Positions 36,940-58,148 of a DNA stretch of 64,000 bases are shown here, piece by piece. Position numbers and translations under genes: made by a program. Location of the stretch: contig QOQW01000009.1 of NCBI GenBank assembly GCA_003327425.1, forward strand, positions 62,001 through 126,000, read 5' to 3'. Below the pieces are notes generated by a model that was not told where the DNA came from, searched no databases, and was given only the letters and a program-made list of their open reading frames with translations. The DNA is from Candidatus Ozemibacter sibiricus. Its GTDB lineage: Bacteria > Muiribacteriota > Ozemobacteria > Ozemobacterales > Ozemobacteraceae. Numbering within the stretch: the first letter of the stretch is position 1; each line of letters opens with the position of its first letter.

Positions 36940-38607
36940 TCAGGGTTCCTTCTCGCCGAAGACCTCGGCCGTGAAGCGCAGGAGCTGGGCGTCTGGCGCT
37001 TTGTGGGAGCCGGGAGGCAGCCCCGCCTTCAGGCACAGATGCTCGAGGAAGGTGTCGCGATCCCAGCCGTATTCGGTGGCCACCTGCGGCAGCAGCACCC
37101 CCGACCGGAACCCCTTCTTCAACAGCAGGCCGTCACGGCCGACCACGATCTCGTCGAGGTTGGCGACCGGGATCATGGGCGACAGCACCGAGATCTCGAT
37201 GTCGATCTCCTTCAGCTCGTCGAGGGTGACCTGGGGAAACCGCGGATCGCGGGTAGCCGCCGCCACCGCCATCTCCTGGATGGCCTCGCCCAGCGGCTCC
37301 ACGCCCTGGAGCAGGCCGATGCAGCCGCGCAGCTCGCCATGCTTCTTCAGCGTGACGAACACGCCGCACTTCTCGGCGAATCGCGGGTGGCGGAACGTCA
37401 AAGCGGGGCGGGGCCGGCCGGCCAGAACCGCTTCGAGCGTGGTGCGGACCGCCGCCAGTGCTTCCTTGTGCATCTCGTTCATCGCTTCTTCCTCCCTTGT
37501 GGCGGTCGCCGTCTCAGGGGTGGACCCCTGGCCGAGGCGGACCGGGCCGCTGCCGGTGCCGCTCCCGGGTGGCGAGCTCTCTGGTGGCGAATGCTCTTGA
37601 CGGTCGATGGCGGGGGTGGAGGCGGGCAGGCCCTCTGCTTCGCACAGGATGGCCGCATACCCTACCACCTGACTGGTATCTCCTGATGCGGCCGAGGAAT
37701 CGGTCCGCGCCAGCAGGCGGGCCCGCCCCCCGGCCGCCTTCATCAGGGTGGTCAAGGCCAGTACCCCGTTGAGGCCGCACAGTTCGGTCGTCTCGCGGCG
37801 ACAGGCCTCGAGCAATCGGGGAGCATCCAGCGCCAGGACCGCGTCGATCCCCACCTGATCGAGGCGCTGCGCCGTCGCCGCATCGTGGTAATGGGACCAG
37901 TCGGTCGAGGCCACGATCAGCACCCGCCCGGCCACGCCGGCCAGATGGCGGCGCAGCAGGTCGCCCAGCCGCAAGCCGTTTTCGGGCGGCCCGCCGACCG
38001 ACAGAAACACCGCCGGGCGGGCGCCCACCGTCTTCAGATAGAACGGCAGCAGCACTTCGAGAGAATGCTCGGCCACATGCTGGCGCGGGTCGACCACCAG
38101 GGCCGGATCGGCCACCAGCAGCTCCTGGCTGGTGGTGGCGTCGGCGGGCACCGGGCCCAGCGGCGTGTCATACCCGCCATCCGCCCAGAGCGAGACGGTC
38201 GGTCGCCCCGAGCGGTGGTCGACACCCAGGAAATAGACGCGATCGAAGGTCTGCCCGGCCACGCTCTTGAAGCCGAGCGCGGCCGTCGGGCCGGAATACT
38301 GGTAGCCGGCATGGGGCACGATCAACCCGACCAGGCGACTGGCGGTGGCGGCCGGCTCGACGGCCGGCGCCCTGGCCAGCAGCCCTTCGACCAGCGGGCC
38401 CAACGCTTCGGCGGTACCGGGATAGAACGCCCCCGCCACGGCGGGCGCCCGCAGGGTGCCGCCCCAGGCGGGAAGTCCGCCGACGATCAGCCCCCAGACC
38501 AGCAGGCCGACCAGGCTGACCAGGCCAACCAAGCCGCGCCGGTCGCCTGGTCGGAGGGCAGCGCCCGTTCGCGAGGAGCCGGACGTGGCAGGCAGGGCGA
38601 TACGCAC
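36940..38607 (-). CDS. Exported Memo-AMMECR1 fusion (AmmeMemoRadiSam proteins B+A)
   Basis: 555 aa from GTG 38607. An N-terminal helix (GLVGLVSLVGLLVWGLIVGG) precedes the Memo domain: APAVAGAFYPG, GLIVPHAGYQYSGPTAA, FLGVDHRSG and VASTDWSHYH, keeping the His/Asp metal-site residues. A Pro/Ser/Gly linker (about 325-370) joins the AMMECR1 domain: LRGCIGLLQGVEPLGEAI, TRDPRFP, IDIEISVLSPM, GLLLKKGFRSGVLLPQV. The system is defined by co-occurrence with a radical SAM enzyme, not seen here. A Met at 37482 in the linker has GGGAGG upstream, so free AMMECR1 might also be made. dapF ends 8 bp upstream. Confidence 0.85.
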   Translation of the reverse strand: MRIALPATSGSSRTGAALRPGDRRGLVGLVSLVGLLVWGLIVGGLPAWGGTLRAPAVAGAFYPGTAEALGPLVEGLLARAPAVEPAATASRLVGLIVPHAGYQYSGPTAALGFKSVAGQTFDRVYFLGVDHRSGRPTVSLWADGGYDTPLGPVPADATTSQELLVADPALVVDPRQHVAEHSLEVLLPFYLKTVGARPAVFLSVGGPPENGLRLGDLLRRHLAGVAGRVLIVASTDWSHYHDAATAQRLDQVGIDAVLALDAPRLLEACRRETTELCGLNGVLALTTLMKAAGGRARLLARTDSSAASGDTSQVVGYAAILCEAEGLPASTPAIDRQEHSPPESSPPGSGTGSGPVRLGQGSTPETATATREEEAMNEMHKEALAAVRTTLEAVLAGRPRPALTFRHPRFAEKCGVFVTLKKHGELRGCIGLLQGVEPLGEAIQEMAVAAATRDPRFPQVTLDELKEIDIEISVLSPMIPVANLDEIVVGRDGLLLKKGFRSGVLLPQVATEYGWDRDTFLEHLCLKAGLPPGSHKAPDAQLLRFTAEVFGEKEP

Positions 38608-38615
38608 GACCGAAC

Positions 38616-39488
38616 TCAGGCTTCCAGGCGGGTCAGGCAGTGCAGAAAACTGGGCGACAGCTGCCCGGCCGCGACCTCCTGGATCGGACCGGTCATGAAC
38701 ATCACGCCGCGCTCGTCCTGGGTGATGATCAGGTCGCCGCCGGGCATATGGATGGTGACGGGCGACGTCAGCTTGCCGCGCTTGATGCCGGCCGCCGTGA
38801 CCGCGGTGGCCCCGGTGCCGCAGGCCTGGGTCATGCCGCAGCCTCGCTCCCAGACGGTCACCTTGGCTTCATGCGGCGACAGCACCTCGACGAACTCGAC
38901 ATTGATCCGACGCGGATGGTTGGGATGGGTCTCCAGCCAGGCCCCGAGCGCGATCATCTCGTCCTGGGTCAGGGGCGACGACAGGAACAGCATGGCGTGC
39001 GGGTTGCCGACGTTGACATACACCGGCTCGAGGGTTTCCCCCTGCCAGTGGAGCGGCTTGCAGTCGCCGGGCGGCAGCAGTTCGCCGGTGGAAACGAGGT
39101 CGAACGTGGGTTTGCCCATCTCGACCCGGTAGAAGCACATGCCATCGCGCACCGCTTCCGAACGCACTTCCTTGACCCCGCTCAGGGTCTCGATCAGCAC
39201 GGGTTCGTGCCCGAGATGGTGCGTCTTGTACAGATGGGCCACGCCGCGAATGGCGTTGCCGCACATCTCGGCCTCGGTCCCGTCGGTGTTGAACATCTGC
39301 ATGCGGCAGTGATGGGCCGGATCGCGGGGCGATTGGATGAAGATCACGCCGTCGCCGGCCAGGCCCCGCCCCGGGTCGCACAGCAACCGCAGCACCTTGG
39401 GCCGTTTCAGCACCGAGAGGTCATGCCCCATTTCGTCGAAGAAGATGAAGTGATTGCCGAGGCCGTGCATCTTGTGGAAGCCGAACAT
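38616..39488 (-). CDS. dapF: Diaminopimelate epimerase
   Basis: 290 aa. The two catalytic cysteines are C76 in EMCGNAIRG and C223 in QACGTGATA. GNHFIFFDE, MQMFNTDGTEAE and VGNPHAM are standard. The first loop reads GRGLAGDGVIF where most homologues have G(I/V)GADG, a small insertion. It interconverts LL- and meso-diaminopimelate for lysine and peptidoglycan synthesis. ATG 39488 follows a GGAG site (39492-39497 region). It lies between the possible membrane protease and the Memo fusion, all leftward with short gaps. Confidence 0.95.
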   Translation of the reverse strand: MFGFHKMHGLGNHFIFFDEMGHDLSVLKRPKVLRLLCDPGRGLAGDGVIFIQSPRDPAHHCRMQMFNTDGTEAEMCGNAIRGVAHLYKTHHLGHEPVLIETLSGVKEVRSEAVRDGMCFYRVEMGKPTFDLVSTGELLPPGDCKPLHWQGETLEPVYVNVGNPHAMLFLSSPLTQDEMIALGAWLETHPNHPRRINVEFVEVLSPHEAKVTVWERGCGMTQACGTGATAVTAAGIKRGKLTSPVTIHMPGGDLIITQDERGVMFMTGPIQEVAAGQLSPSFLHCLTRLEA

Positions 39489-39500
39489 GCGGTGTTCTCC

Positions 39501-40712
39501 TCAGTGGAAATGATGAGCCAGTCGGGAAAAGAGCCAGAAAGCCACGCCGATGGCGGCCAGGAACAGGACGATCGTGCGCAGGTCCTTGCGCTCCAGGTGG
39601 AGGTCGCGCCAGTTGCCCAGCACGAACAGGATGCTGATGCAGGGCAGGACCGGCAGCCCCGCCCCCAGGAAGATCGCCGCCGCGACGGTGAGCAGAAAGC
39701 CCGCTCCCAGCAGCAGGACATTCTTGCGGAGGCCGAGATCGAACCGGCGCGCCGCCTGGAAATAGATGCCAAAAAACAGGAAATCCGTCAACCCGATCAG
39801 GAAGGGAAACGCCGCCGGACCACCGCTCAGGAGCGGGAACCGCAGCAGGAAATAATGGATCTGGGCCGACCGGATGATCAACGCTGTCGCCCCCTGCGCG
39901 ACGCTCCAGGCGTCGGCCAGGGTCGCCACCAGGGCGATGGGGATCAGATGGCTCTTTTCATCGATTCCGTCGCCGATCCACAGGCCGATCCCCGCGGCCA
40001 CCAGCAACTGCGCCAGGCACAACAGGAAGATCCGCCACGGGCTCTCAGGGATTTCCTCCTCCAGGAAGTCGGCCACCCGGCCGTGGATTTCGTTGCGGGC
40101 CACGATCACCCCGTCGGTTTCGGGCAGGCCGGCGTGGGCGGTCGTCCACAGCACCACCCCGGAAGTGATCGCAGCGGCCCGTTCGATGGCCGCCGTCCGT
40201 CCGGCCAGGGGCCGGGCCGTCACCAGCACCAGGGCCAGGCCCACCGCCCCCAGGGCGAGGTAGGTCGTCCGGTGGAGGGCCAACCTGGAAAAGGCGTTGA
40301 CCCAGGCGAACGACAGGCCGATCACCGCGGTGGCCGACAGGAACAGGGCCGCCGCGCGCGGCAGCTCAGGCAGCCCGGGCTGCAGGAGGGCGACCCCACC
40401 GAAGGCCAGGGCCCAGGCGACCGTCACCCGGCCGAGCAGAGCCCACGGGCGCGGCCGATCACCCTCCGGGGGCGGAGGGGGGGACGCGCCGGGGCCGGCA
40501 GGCCCGGCCGCCTCTCCGGCGGCCCGTTCATAGGTGGCCATCTCCTCGACCGCGCTTTGGCTGGCGGCCGTCGCCTCCTCCGAGGCAGAGTCGGCCGGGG
40601 CGGCGGGCGCGAGCTCTGGGGCCGCTCCTGGAGACGCCGCCCCCTCCGTGACAGGGTCCGCCGGCATTCCCTCGGCGGGCGCGGGTCGAGGCGAAGCAGG
40701 GGGGACGGTCAT
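39501..40712 (-). CDS. Polytopic membrane protein with presenilin-like GxxD features
   Basis: 403 aa. The first ~85 residues are Pro/Ala/Glu-rich and cytoplasmic. About nine membrane helices follow. In the second half one helix contains ALVATLADAWSV, the next FPFLIGLTDFLFFGIYFQAA, then a helix, then GLPVLPCISILFVLG. In archaeal presenilin homologues the order is (Y)D-A-x-S-V, GxGD-F, helix, PAL-type helix. The spacing and two membrane aspartates match, but Tyr and the second Gly are substituted (AD, GLTD). A GxGD-type intramembrane aspartyl protease is therefore a hypothesis; a transporter or plain membrane protein remains possible. It sits 12 bp upstream of dapF. Confidence 0.4.
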   Translation of the reverse strand: MTVPPASPRPAPAEGMPADPVTEGAASPGAAPELAPAAPADSASEEATAASQSAVEEMATYERAAGEAAGPAGPGASPPPPPEGDRPRPWALLGRVTVAWALAFGGVALLQPGLPELPRAAALFLSATAVIGLSFAWVNAFSRLALHRTTYLALGAVGLALVLVTARPLAGRTAAIERAAAITSGVVLWTTAHAGLPETDGVIVARNEIHGRVADFLEEEIPESPWRIFLLCLAQLLVAAGIGLWIGDGIDEKSHLIPIALVATLADAWSVAQGATALIIRSAQIHYFLLRFPLLSGGPAAFPFLIGLTDFLFFGIYFQAARRFDLGLRKNVLLLGAGFLLTVAAAIFLGAGLPVLPCISILFVLGNWRDLHLERKDLRTIVLFLAAIGVAFWLFSRLAHHFH

Positions 40713-40797: not shown

Positions 40798-42243
40798 TCA
40801 CTTGCGGGTGGCGCCGCGCAGCAGATTCAGGCTTTCCGAGGCCAGGGCGACGAATTCCGGATCGGTGTTGCTGCGGATCGCCTCTTCATACGCCTTGATG
40901 GCGTCTTCCTTGCGGTTCAGCTTCTCGTAGATGCGGCCCAGATGCAGATGCACCTCGCTCGAGATCGGCTCGTGCGTCAAGCGGAAGATCTTCATCGCCC
41001 GCTCCTGCACTTTGAGGGCCTGCTCGTACTGGCCCTTGCGGTAGTGCACCCAGGCCAGGGAATCGAGGTAGGTGGCCCGATTGGGCTTATCGAGCTCGAG
41101 GGCCTTCTCGATCAACTGCTTGGCCAGTGGCAGCTCGCGGTTCTGGTCGGCCAGCAGGTAGCCCAGGGTGTTGGCGATCGCCCCGTTGTCGGGCATCAGC
41201 TCGACCATCTTCTTGAAGACCCGGATCGCGTCATCGAACAGCTTCTTCTCGAGGAAGGCCGACCCCATCACCGACAGCACGCGCAGATTGCCGGGATCGC
41301 GCTCGAGCAGGGCTTCCCACTCCTTCCGGGCTTTCTCGAGGTCGCCCATCTCGAAGAAGACCACCCCCAGATTGAGGCGGGGGCTGATGTCGGATTCATC
41401 GAGCGAGATGGCGCTGCGGTAGATCTTTTCCGCCTCCACCAATTCCTTGGTGCCGAGGAAGACGTTGCCCAGGTTGATGCGGGCCTTGACGTTCTTGGGG
41501 TCGAGCGCCAGCACCCGATTGAACAATTCGATGGCCCGATCTTTCTCGCCGAGGACCGAGTAGACCAGGCCGAGGTTGTTCATCGCGTTGATGTGATCGG
41601 GCTCCATCTTCAGGACGGTCTCGTATTTGTTGATGGCCTCGAAGAAGCGAGACGTCTCGTGGTAGGCGACGCCCAGATTGTAGTGCGCCTCGGCGGGCAG
41701 ATTGGGGTCGAGGGCGAACGCCTCTTCGTAGGCCTTGATCGCTTCGTCGATGCGATTGGTGAAATAGCTGGCCATTCCCAGCAGATACCATGTGTAGGGC
41801 TGCCGCCGGTCGATGGCCAGCGTTCGCCGCAGGTACGAAGCCGCTTCGGGGAAGCGTTCGAGCTGCAGGTAGAGTTTGCCCAGGTTGCGCAGGGCTTCCG
41901 AATACATCGGGTCGATGGCGACGGCCCGCTTGAGCATCTCTTCCGCTTTCTGCGTGAGGCCCTCCTGCAGATACAGCAAACCCAGGAAATTATGGGCCTC
42001 TTCGGAATACGGGTCGATGCTCATCGCTTTGAGGAACGATTCCTCCGCCTTCTTGTTCTGCTCGAGGATCAGGAAGTTCAACCCCTCGTGGATCAGCCGG
42101 CGCGCTTCTTCTTTGGGCGTGATCTTGTCCTTGTCTTTGGCCGAACCGAATCCCGGGATGGCCCCCGCGAGCAGCAGAACGACCAGCGCGATGCCGAGCA
42201 GGCGAGGGGGCAGGAGGGGCCGGGGGAAGGCGGAAGGTGTCAT
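40798..42243 (-). CDS. Secreted or lipid-free TPR-repeat protein
   Basis: 481 aa. Signal peptide-like RLLGIALVVLLLAGAIPGFG. After it lie about eleven consecutive 34-residue TPR units, each with the W/L-G-Y-A-P pattern (AHNFLGLLYLQEGLTQKAEEML; ALRNLGKLYLQLERFPEAASYL; and so on to HLHLGRIYEKLNRKEDAIKAY). TPR solenoids bind partner proteins. TadD of Tad systems is a TPR lipoprotein, but this gene is separated from the Tad cluster and lacks a lipobox, so the link is speculative. It is 19 bp downstream of the small exported-protein gene. Confidence 0.8.
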   Translation of the reverse strand: MTPSAFPRPLLPPRLLGIALVVLLLAGAIPGFGSAKDKDKITPKEEARRLIHEGLNFLILEQNKKAEESFLKAMSIDPYSEEAHNFLGLLYLQEGLTQKAEEMLKRAVAIDPMYSEALRNLGKLYLQLERFPEAASYLRRTLAIDRRQPYTWYLLGMASYFTNRIDEAIKAYEEAFALDPNLPAEAHYNLGVAYHETSRFFEAINKYETVLKMEPDHINAMNNLGLVYSVLGEKDRAIELFNRVLALDPKNVKARINLGNVFLGTKELVEAEKIYRSAISLDESDISPRLNLGVVFFEMGDLEKARKEWEALLERDPGNLRVLSVMGSAFLEKKLFDDAIRVFKKMVELMPDNGAIANTLGYLLADQNRELPLAKQLIEKALELDKPNRATYLDSLAWVHYRKGQYEQALKVQERAMKIFRLTHEPISSEVHLHLGRIYEKLNRKEDAIKAYEEAIRSNTDPEFVALASESLNLLRGATRK

Positions 42244-46706: not shown

Positions 46707-47189
46707 TCAGCGATTGACGAGGACCAGGGGGATTTTGTAAACACTGAACACTCGCAGGGGAAGGGAGGGGTTCCCTTGGATGATTTCAGCCAGCCGTTGG
46801 AAGATTGGGGTGTAGAGAGGGGATGAAGATATCAGGGTGACGCGGACAGCCCGGTCTCCTGATGCCAGCAAGAAAGGATTCACATATTGGACGGTGATGG
46901 GTTGGGTCCAGGTGGGGGGGCGCTTGTTCATGACATAGGCGGTCACCTGGCTGGCGCTCATCACCCCCTGAGTCCCGTTGCTTTCGGCGGCAAACTGGGC
47001 GGCATCGTTGCACAATTGCTGCAAGACGAGAAGATTCCGCAAAGCGAAACCGAAATCGACGATGCCCGCAATGACAAAAAGGACAAAGAGACCCACCGCC
47101 AACGATAACTCAACGATGGCTTGCCCCCTCTTTTGGCGATGGCCTAGTCTGAAGAGCCAGCGAACAGGAGTGGGCCTCGTTCGGATCAT
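46707..47189 (-). CDS. TadE-like pilus assembly protein
   Basis: 160 aa. RQKRGQAIVELSLAVGLFVLFVIAGIVD is the TadE prepilin-type segment. DFGFALRNLLVLQQLCNDAA and a C-terminal LYTPIFQRLAEI follow, closely parallel to the product of 57045-57497. ATG 47189 is chosen for the ATGGAG ribosome site 6 nt upstream; the longer frame upstream (to 47381) is not TadE-like. The next gene starts 21 bp downstream. Confidence 0.8.
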   Translation of the reverse strand: MIRTRPTPVRWLFRLGHRQKRGQAIVELSLAVGLFVLFVIAGIVDFGFALRNLLVLQQLCNDAAQFAAESNGTQGVMSASQVTAYVMNKRPPTWTQPITVQYVNPFLLASGDRAVRVTLISSSPLYTPIFQRLAEIIQGNPSLPLRVFSVYKIPLVLVNR

Positions 47190-47590
47190 ACGTTTCTCCA
47201 TAATGGGTAGGAATCGGCACCCGGGCTGTGAGGCAGGGAACTCCCAAGGGGTACAGTTAGCAACAATTATGCCACAGGTAGGATGGGGGGGAAAACCTGA
47301 TTTTCTGAGACCCCACCCCCTGGGAGGTGGTGTGGCAGGGTAGGCGTTCGGGATCATCAATGCGTGGTTTTTTAACCGCATAGGGAAAGTTTGTTCGTCT
47401 CCCTGTCAACGGGAAAAGCTGGTATTTCCGACCTTAGGGCGGTAGAACAATGGGGAAGAGGGAATGGGCAAGATCGGCCATGCCCGAAGTCCATGGTTTT
47501 GCCATCAGTTGGCCAGGAGATTTTACGAACAAGAACCTGGCCCCCACGGGGGAGCCAGGTTCTGAATGACAAAGCGGTTTCTTGGTGGTC
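47190..47590. other. Non-coding gap inside the Tad cluster
   Basis: 401 bp. It holds the hairpin at 47532-47563, a minus-strand TTGACA (47404-47409) without a convincing -10 at the right distance, and an imperfect hairpin around 47362-47380. It probably separates the tadE-tadE-tadG unit from the machinery genes upstream. No small Flp-like ORF was found. Confidence 0.45.
47532..47563 (-). terminator. Hairpin after lipoprotein gene
   Basis: AGAACCTGGC/GCCAGGTTCT, 10-bp perfect stem extended by CCCC/GGGG inside, 28 bp beyond the stop at 47591. It is followed on the minus strand by TTGTTCGTAAAATC, with only a short T-content. Confidence 0.6.
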
Positions 47591-57620: not shown

Positions 57621-58148
57621 TCACCACAAGGGCGGAAGATGCAGGATACGGGCGAGAAGACAACCTAGAAAGAGGTCTTGCCCTAGGTAAAATTTGTATT
57701 GCAGGGGATCTTGGGCATCGGGCAGCCGCTTCGAAAGGAAACTGCCCGTCAGGTAGCTGGTGGTAAGCATTGCTAGCGCCTGCTTCCCATGATTGAGGTA
57801 GAGAATGAACAGGGCGTGTGGCAAACCCACCGCACTCGCGATGAGGAAGACCCAGATCACATATTGGCATCCTCCCCATGCCCCTATGCCTCCTAGGAGT
57901 TTGACGTCGCCCATGCCGATGAGCCCGAACAAGGCCAGCCATAGGTAGAGAGCGATTCCCAACAAGGTGGCCGCCATGCTCCAGGCCAGGCCGGAGACCC
58001 CAGCCCAGAGGAAATGGGCCAGCCACCCAGAAACCATCATGGGGAAGGTCAGCCAATTGTAGATCTTGCCCGTTCGCACGTCGGTGACCATCGCCACCCC
58101 GGCTCCCAGGATGGCGACGATCTGAAACCATGACAAGGCGGCATCCAT
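57621..58148 (-). CDS. CpaA/TadV prepilin peptidase
   Basis: 175 aa. A24-type aspartic peptidase with the two catalytic Asp motifs: VTDVRTGKIYNWLTFPMM (D23) and GLIGMGDVKLLGGIGAWGG (GxGD). About five membrane helices and no N-methylation domain, as in TadV/CpaA. It should cleave the TadE-like proteins, and perhaps the pseudopilins of 32401-36818. It is the most upstream gene of the Tad cluster in this window, 72 bp after the terminator of the next unit. Confidence 0.85.
   Translation of the reverse strand: MDAALSWFQIVAILGAGVAMVTDVRTGKIYNWLTFPMMVSGWLAHFLWAGVSGLAWSMAATLLGIALYLWLALFGLIGMGDVKLLGGIGAWGGCQYVIWVFLIASAVGLPHALFILYLNHGKQALAMLTTSYLTGSFLSKRLPDAQDPLQYKFYLGQDLFLGCLLARILHLPPLW

Follow-up and report, generated by a model that had tools for sequence, protein, structure and literature searches.

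Presenilin is the membrane-cutting enzyme behind the amyloid of Alzheimer's disease, and presenilin/SPP proteases are central to this disease, to Notch signalling and to ER quality control. Both aspartates are required for catalysis in the presenilin/SPP family. In presenilins and SPPs these residues lie in TM6 and TM7, with the PAL motif in TM9, as described in the excerpts of PMC7768045. In the literature covered, which was represented in part by excerpts, the prokaryotic presenilin/SPP members beyond prepilin peptidases are archaeal. Apart from prepilin peptidases, bacterial proteases of the presenilin/SPP type were not found described in the open PMC literature, including the excerpts of PMC2947513, PMC12067869, PMC7366577, PMC4343526 and PMC7768045, and an earlier description may exist in subscription or bioRxiv work.

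The window analysed here is a stretch of 64,000 nucleotides from Candidatus Ozemibacter sibiricus, whose minus strand carries an ORF with an ATG start that covers exactly positions 39501-40712 and encodes 403 aa (Table 1). Beyond its approximately 88 N-terminal residues, an extension absent from most homologues, the product is a polytopic membrane protein. Comparison with the same-genus homologue L002 over 308 codons revealed purifying selection on the gene (NG86 dN 0.092, dS 0.525). An earlier note on this DNA had proposed a possible divergent presenilin-like protease from three motifs, and these were found as first noted in the minus-strand ORF: ADAWSV (D267), IGLTDF (G307..D310) and AGLPVLP (P354..P357). 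The spacing proposed there also agrees with the structural model described below, in which D267 (helix 253-272) and D310 (helix 308-323) are placed on adjacent helices, and helix 328-349 intervenes before PVLP opens helix 355-366, two helices after Asp2. The term divergent is likewise apt, given the changes of Y to A before Asp1, G to T before Asp2 and A to V in PAL, plus a different helix layout.

Table 1. Position of the presenilin-like gene, its predicted features and its neighbours in the window, and of fusion proteins at other loci
Feature	Coordinates	Strand	Basis
TPR-repeat protein, upstream conserved neighbour	40798..42243	-	Pfam TPR; upstream in 15/15 named loci L027-L041
Presenilin-like intramembrane protein, 403 aa	39501..40712	-	ORF; conserved family; model pLDDT 94.2 over aa 85-403
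N-terminal extension rich in Pro/Ala/Glu, ~aa 1-88, before first membrane helix; predicted start codon	40449..40712	-	sequence
Helix carrying first catalytic-type Asp (ADAWSV), aa 253-272	39897..39956	-	model helix 169-188
D267, putative catalytic Asp1	39912..39914	-	42/42 scorable homologues
GLTDF helix, aa 308-323, predicted beta strand (model 220-223) just before	39744..39791	-	AlphaFold2 model
D310, putative catalytic Asp2	39783..39785	-	42/42 homologues; aligns with GLGD Asp of presenilin-1
PVLP (PAL-like motif), aa 354-357	39642..39653	-	first Pro 42/42; aligns with presenilin-1 PALP
Extra C-terminal helix beyond PAL, aa 375-402	39507..39590	-	model helix 291-318; presenilin-matched range stops at 289
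Diaminopimelate epimerase (dapF), downstream conserved neighbour, 12-nt gap	38616..39488	-	PF01678; downstream in 13/15 named loci L027-L041
604-aa fusion proteins	L042:3253-5064, L043:920-2731, L044:5563-7374, L045:3116-4927		

In an alignment of 25 family members the invariant positions were D267, S270, V271, G274, G307, D310 and P354. Addition of eight more distant members found by profile resulted in a set of 33 diverse homologues with only four columns invariant in all, D267, G307, D310 and P354, indicating that the motif pattern is more than chance. Over all fetched loci there were 43 distinct homologous ORFs, of which 42 were scored, as L017 runs into a contig edge ahead of the motifs. 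The first D, the first G of GxxD, the second D and the first P of the PAL-like motif were kept in 42 of these 42. Invariance of both aspartates, a check suggested in the earlier note, was thus observed in the 33-member alignment and in the full set of scorable ORFs.

The positions around these four residues were variable. At Asp1 the window protein reads AD, and the YD form was present in 1/42 homologues; at Asp2 it reads GLTD, with GxGD in 12/42, and the residue before Asp2 was always small (T 15, G 12, S 9, A 6). The third motif, PVLP in the window protein, was PVLP in 19 homologues, PALP in eight, PAIP in five, PALV in five, PGIP in three and PVIP in one, and was cut off after the first P in the remaining one, so that PAL was found in 13/42 and the first Pro in 42/42. 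Canonical GxGD and canonical PAL both occur inside the family, in L048 (GMGDF, PALP), L049 (GIGDF, PALP) and L089 (GVGDV, PALP). With regard to the described enzymes, replacement of the glycine before Asp2 in MCMJR1 (G219A) slows cleavage (excerpts of PMC2947513), and a title cited by PMC7768045 describes the first Pro of PALP as essential. Since the window protein has Thr for Gly before Asp2, its activity could be low. The bacterial family keeps exactly the indispensable residues and relaxes the rate-tuning ones, and for this reason we regard it as very probably an active aspartyl protease that works within the membrane.

Relaxation of GxGD, with T, S or A in 30/42 homologues, might also be expected if the protein had a presenilin fold and no protease activity, the Asp pair serving for ion or proton passage, sensing or scaffolding and the signalling fusions marking a sensory membrane domain. 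Fusions to a HAMP-cyclase and to a sub-threshold HisKA_7TM region, detailed below, are compatible with such a role. Against it, the columns that stay invariant coincide exactly with the catalytic and PAL residues of presenilin, and a plain scaffold need not retain both Asp in every lineage, so we regard this explanation as improbable. Altogether, the gene product is very probably, as judged from fold and conservation, a bacterial intramembrane protease of the di-aspartyl type with the presenilin/SPP fold.

An AlphaFold2 model was obtained from 22 aligned family sequences, with pLDDT 94.2 and pTM 0.88 (window aa number = model residue + 84). Comparison of this model with the PDB through VIA-align placed SPPL2a, presenilin-1/2 or PSH in all of the top 24 entries (Z 13.7-9.1, rmsd 3.3-4.4, 148-193 residues), and the first unrelated entry was MurJ, with Z 6.7 over 53 residues; it has to be noted that Z near 13 may arise by chance for helical bundles. 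With Foldseek against the PDB, ranks 1-15 were all SPPL2a or presenilin (E 1.1e-3 to 0.2, best probability 1.00) and the first unrelated entry had a probability of 0.15, with no E-value below 0.001 and with low TM-scores by query (0.27-0.40; 0.34-0.40 in the top ten). A second model, built for L049, a distant member that is 21% identical to the window protein, reached pLDDT 88.7 and pTM 0.83. VIA-align recovered for it the same 24 presenilin/SPPL2a/PSH entries on top (Z 13.3-8.7), followed by an entry at 4.6, and Foldseek placed presenilin or SPPL2a at ranks 1-13 (E 0.03-0.36). The two models are not fully independent, because their input alignments share most sequences. Structure prediction, another check suggested at the outset, thus returned the presenilin/SPP fold in both cases, and these results support the view that the window protein and L049 share the predicted fold of the presenilin/SPP structural superfamily (A22-like).

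At the level of sequence, a profile of the 25 members run by hmmsearch against all PDB chain sequences (E<=10) had as its sole match the presenilin-1 C-terminal fragment 2kr6 (E 2.4e-4), with GltDF aligned on GLGDF and lPvLP on LPALP. A profile of the six-member canonical subgroup matched only presenilin-1 (E 1.4e-3) and presenilin-2 (E 2.1e-3) among PDB sequences, and the 33-member profile gave presenilin-1 as its best match (E 4.4e-4), ahead of two designed proteins and of myomaker (E 0.029-2.7). The single window protein gave no useful match in Pfam, NCBIfam or PDB sequences. In the Pfam checks of the window protein and its relatives, none reached the curated cut-offs of PF01080, PF04258 or PF06550: the best Pfam A22 score was that of PF01080 on L026 (E 0.0031, 16.8 bits, below the cut-off of 34.3), PF04258 had no match in the window protein or in the family members checked, and the archaeal family PF06550 was found neither in the window protein's own genome nor in any of 286 sampled bacterial relatives, in a search that was positive in two archaeal controls. 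Comparison by hhalign with PSH, on its own or joined by one haloarchaeal sequence, gave no significant match; in the latter, non-significant alignment the GxGD stretch was in the correct register (FLIGLTDFLFF on FIGLGDAVIPT). As a yardstick, PSH itself finds no presenilin in the PDB by phmmer up to E 10. The motifs of the Natrinema PSH-type protein (YDAISV, IGLGD, AGLPLL) can be set beside ADAWSV, IGLTD and AGLPVL of the window protein.

These data bear on whether the resemblance could be due to chance, the gene encoding a polytopic protein of another kind, for instance a transporter, with meaningless motifs. Helical bundles often yield middling structural scores, and a sub-threshold match to PF09527 (E 8e-4) points in the same direction; this match was seen in 1/25 members only and was dropped. 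The clean score gap between presenilins and all other entries in two models, profiles that match only or first presenilins, and the invariance of the motif residues make a chance resemblance highly improbable.

The helix layout does not follow that of A22 proteins. Nine hydrophobic helices were predicted in both models, the same number as in A22. The Asp1 helix is the fifth, with four others ahead of it, the Asp2 helix is the sixth, and PAL opens the eighth, with a ninth beyond, instead of Asp in TM6/TM7 and PAL in TM9. The range matched to presenilins runs from the second helix, at model residue 31-39, up to 287-289, and the first and the last helix are not part of it. The loop that leads into the Asp2 helix is bordered by short predicted beta strands (model 205-207, 220-223), of the kind that presenilin makes with its bound substrate (excerpts of PMC12067869). 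Judged strictly by motifs, order of helices and Pfam cut-offs, the window protein is not A22; its predicted fold and catalytic-type residues place it in a bacterial branch of the presenilin/SPP superfamily.

Regarding orientation, mean K+R values in the short loops taken as cytoplasmic were 1.9 (L2), 2.9 (L6) and 3.0 (L8), versus 0.4 in L7, the PAL loop, as counted over the first 14 of the 25 alignment rows. The putative periplasmic loops L3 and L5 are long and bear K/R too, which makes the positive-inside evidence modest. The charges in L2, L6 and L8 relative to the PAL loop moderately suggest a periplasmic Asp1-Asp2 loop, that is, an SPP-like orientation.

From the computed data (predicted fold, motif conservation, distribution and gene order) we infer catalysis, orientation and substrate class as follows. 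Asp267 and Asp310, on neighbouring helices within the membrane, would activate water and cut a transmembrane helix of the substrate. As in presenilin, this substrate would be kept extended, lying as a strand along the beta strands predicted ahead of the Asp310 helix and the PVLP segment. An SPP-like orientation would imply N-in/C-out (type II) membrane segments as substrates, of which spent signal peptides, proteins resembling pilins and regulators anchored in the membrane might be examples.

Of 142 whole genomes searched, 26 gave matches, and a scan of named genomes revealed 21 loci in Candidatus Riflebacteria/Ozemobacteraceae, Wallbacteria, UBP16, UBP13 and a few unassigned or oddly named MAGs. 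In a sample of 381 genomes 38 genomes with a match were listed in all, and two marginal matches (G015 and G097, E near 9e-4, outside the catalytic region, that of G097 with two stops) were dropped. Clear matches were found in 24/39 genomes of the window's phylum (25 were listed, of which one was marginal and discounted) and, outside the phylum, in 12/342 genomes from eight families, to which a separate search added a ninth, f113. Some of the homologues found across all these groups carry canonical GxGD and PALP. The patchy occurrence outside the phylum would be expected if the gene had arrived by recent transfer from archaea or eukaryotes, or by contamination, rather than belonging to an old bacterial lineage. 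We consider such an origin unlikely, in view of its presence in most genomes of the phylum with a conserved gene order, the lack of PF06550 among the 286 bacterial relatives and the distance of the sequences from every known A22 family. The family appears to consist of bacterial presenilin relatives that standard protein-family catalogues do not list.

Analysis of the gene neighbourhoods revealed no partner gene universal among those examined. The order in Riflebacteria is a small secreted-looking protein, the TPR protein, the presenilin-like gene, dapF, Memo-AMMECR1 and then pilin-like genes, presumably PilX-, PilV- and PilW-like, one of which has a sub-threshold PF07963 match. In the window, the Memo-like and AMMECR1 domains are fused in a single protein (36940-38607, minus strand) two genes past the presenilin-like gene. 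In f24 and f113 the gene follows, in 6/6 loci (L101-L105, L097) and often with overlap, a metallo-beta-lactamase-fold gene that we take to be YycJ-like (the fold was assigned by Pfam on the G054 copy and by similarity on the other copies). An ECF sigma factor and a single-span protein are also upstream in G054, and lnt is upstream in G157.

Several lineages link the gene to signalling domains. A 1132-aa protein in G175 (L098:4306-7701, minus strand) joins the presenilin-like region to HAMP and an adenylate/guanylate cyclase domain, and the next gene in UBP13 is a GAF-GGDEF. In the Wallbacteria-type 604-aa proteins (Table 1) the presenilin-like region is the C-terminal half, and the N-terminal region has a sub-threshold HisKA_7TM match (E 4e-4, 20.7 bits vs 28.6; checked on L042).

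In f113, six consecutive pilin-like genes stand right after the presenilin-like gene (L114:2831-10205, L115:2203-9448). Motif-defined pilins were present within ~10 kb in 5/20 gene regions (17 in 389 kb) vs 1/14 control regions (2 in 253 kb; 14 controls existed of 20 requested), and 12 of the 17 came from two clusters, G148 and G150. A general link to pilin genes was discarded, as the association is lineage-specific and therefore no general evidence. These genes would acquire a meaning if the family were an offshoot of type IV prepilin peptidases (A24) that processes nearby pseudopilins, an explanation to which the GxxD motif and the pilin-like genes downstream in Riflebacteria, and also in G148 and G150, lend themselves. 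We give it very little credence: the structural matches are presenilin/SPP, the motif scan found no pilins near the gene in most other lineages, and separate PF01478 A24 enzymes are present in 39/39 genomes of the phylum, one of them within the window. The same count led us to reject a substitution for prepilin peptidase. No A24 structure was among the PDB matches listed by Foldseek and VIA-align, an absence that is in itself no exclusion.

Elsewhere in the window, a second, separate GxGD-type protease gene matches PF01478 (A24, prepilin peptidase) at 57813-58118 (minus strand). The ORF at 46707-47381 (minus strand) has a TadE-like N-terminus (GQAIVELSLAVGLFVLFVIAG), which suggests a Tad pilus region in the window.

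Taking the reading as a presenilin-type protease further, bacteria may hold an unrecognised, old and scattered third presenilin/SPP branch made up of active, SPP-oriented aspartyl intramembrane proteases, wired to signalling in several lineages through a HAMP and adenylate/guanylate cyclase fusion, a fusion to a histidine-kinase-type 7TM sensor, or a GAF-GGDEF or ECF sigma factor neighbour. We see the case for this wider proposal as evenly balanced. If true, bacteria would have presenilin-style regulated intramembrane proteolysis, a further kind besides rhomboids and site-2 proteases. With its small members, the branch would supply simple new models of gamma-secretase catalysis, would separate the motif positions that can be dispensed with from those that cannot (D, first G, D, first P) and would bear on the age of the family.

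Among the known systems, type IV prepilin peptidase/FlaK (A24, PF01478) is also a GxGD-type di-aspartyl membrane protease, and pilin genes lie near the presenilin-like gene in some lineages; PF01478 is, however, absent from the Pfam matches of the window protein at E<=10, and the phylum has its own A24 enzymes. In the excerpts of PMC2947513, the aspartates of TFPP are placed in soluble regions and cleavage outside the membrane. The archaeal PSH/MCMJR1 (PF06550) shares the predicted fold (4y6k Z 11.3, 4hyg Z 10.8), is prokaryotic and has close motif wording, whereas PF06550 gave no match in the window genome or the bacterial relatives and the hhalign comparisons described above were not significant. 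Presenilin-1/-2 (MEROPS A22A, PF01080), the catalytic subunit of gamma-secretase, has the same fold (Z up to 13.6), with two membrane Asp on neighbouring helices, the G..D and LPxLP motifs aligned by profile and beta strands predicted just before the Asp2 helix of the window protein. The latter differs from it in the residues that precede Asp1 (A, not Y) and Asp2 (T, not G) and in PVLP for PALP, in four predicted helices instead of five before the Asp1 helix and one more after the PAL helix, and in a probably opposite orientation. SPP/SPPL2a (A22B, PF04258), from which the window protein departs in the lack of a PF04258 match and in the same motifs and helix layout as from presenilin, has the same fold, provides the top structural match (9k93, Z 13.7) and shares with it an Asp1-Asp2 loop that, in the window protein, probably lies outside the cytoplasm.
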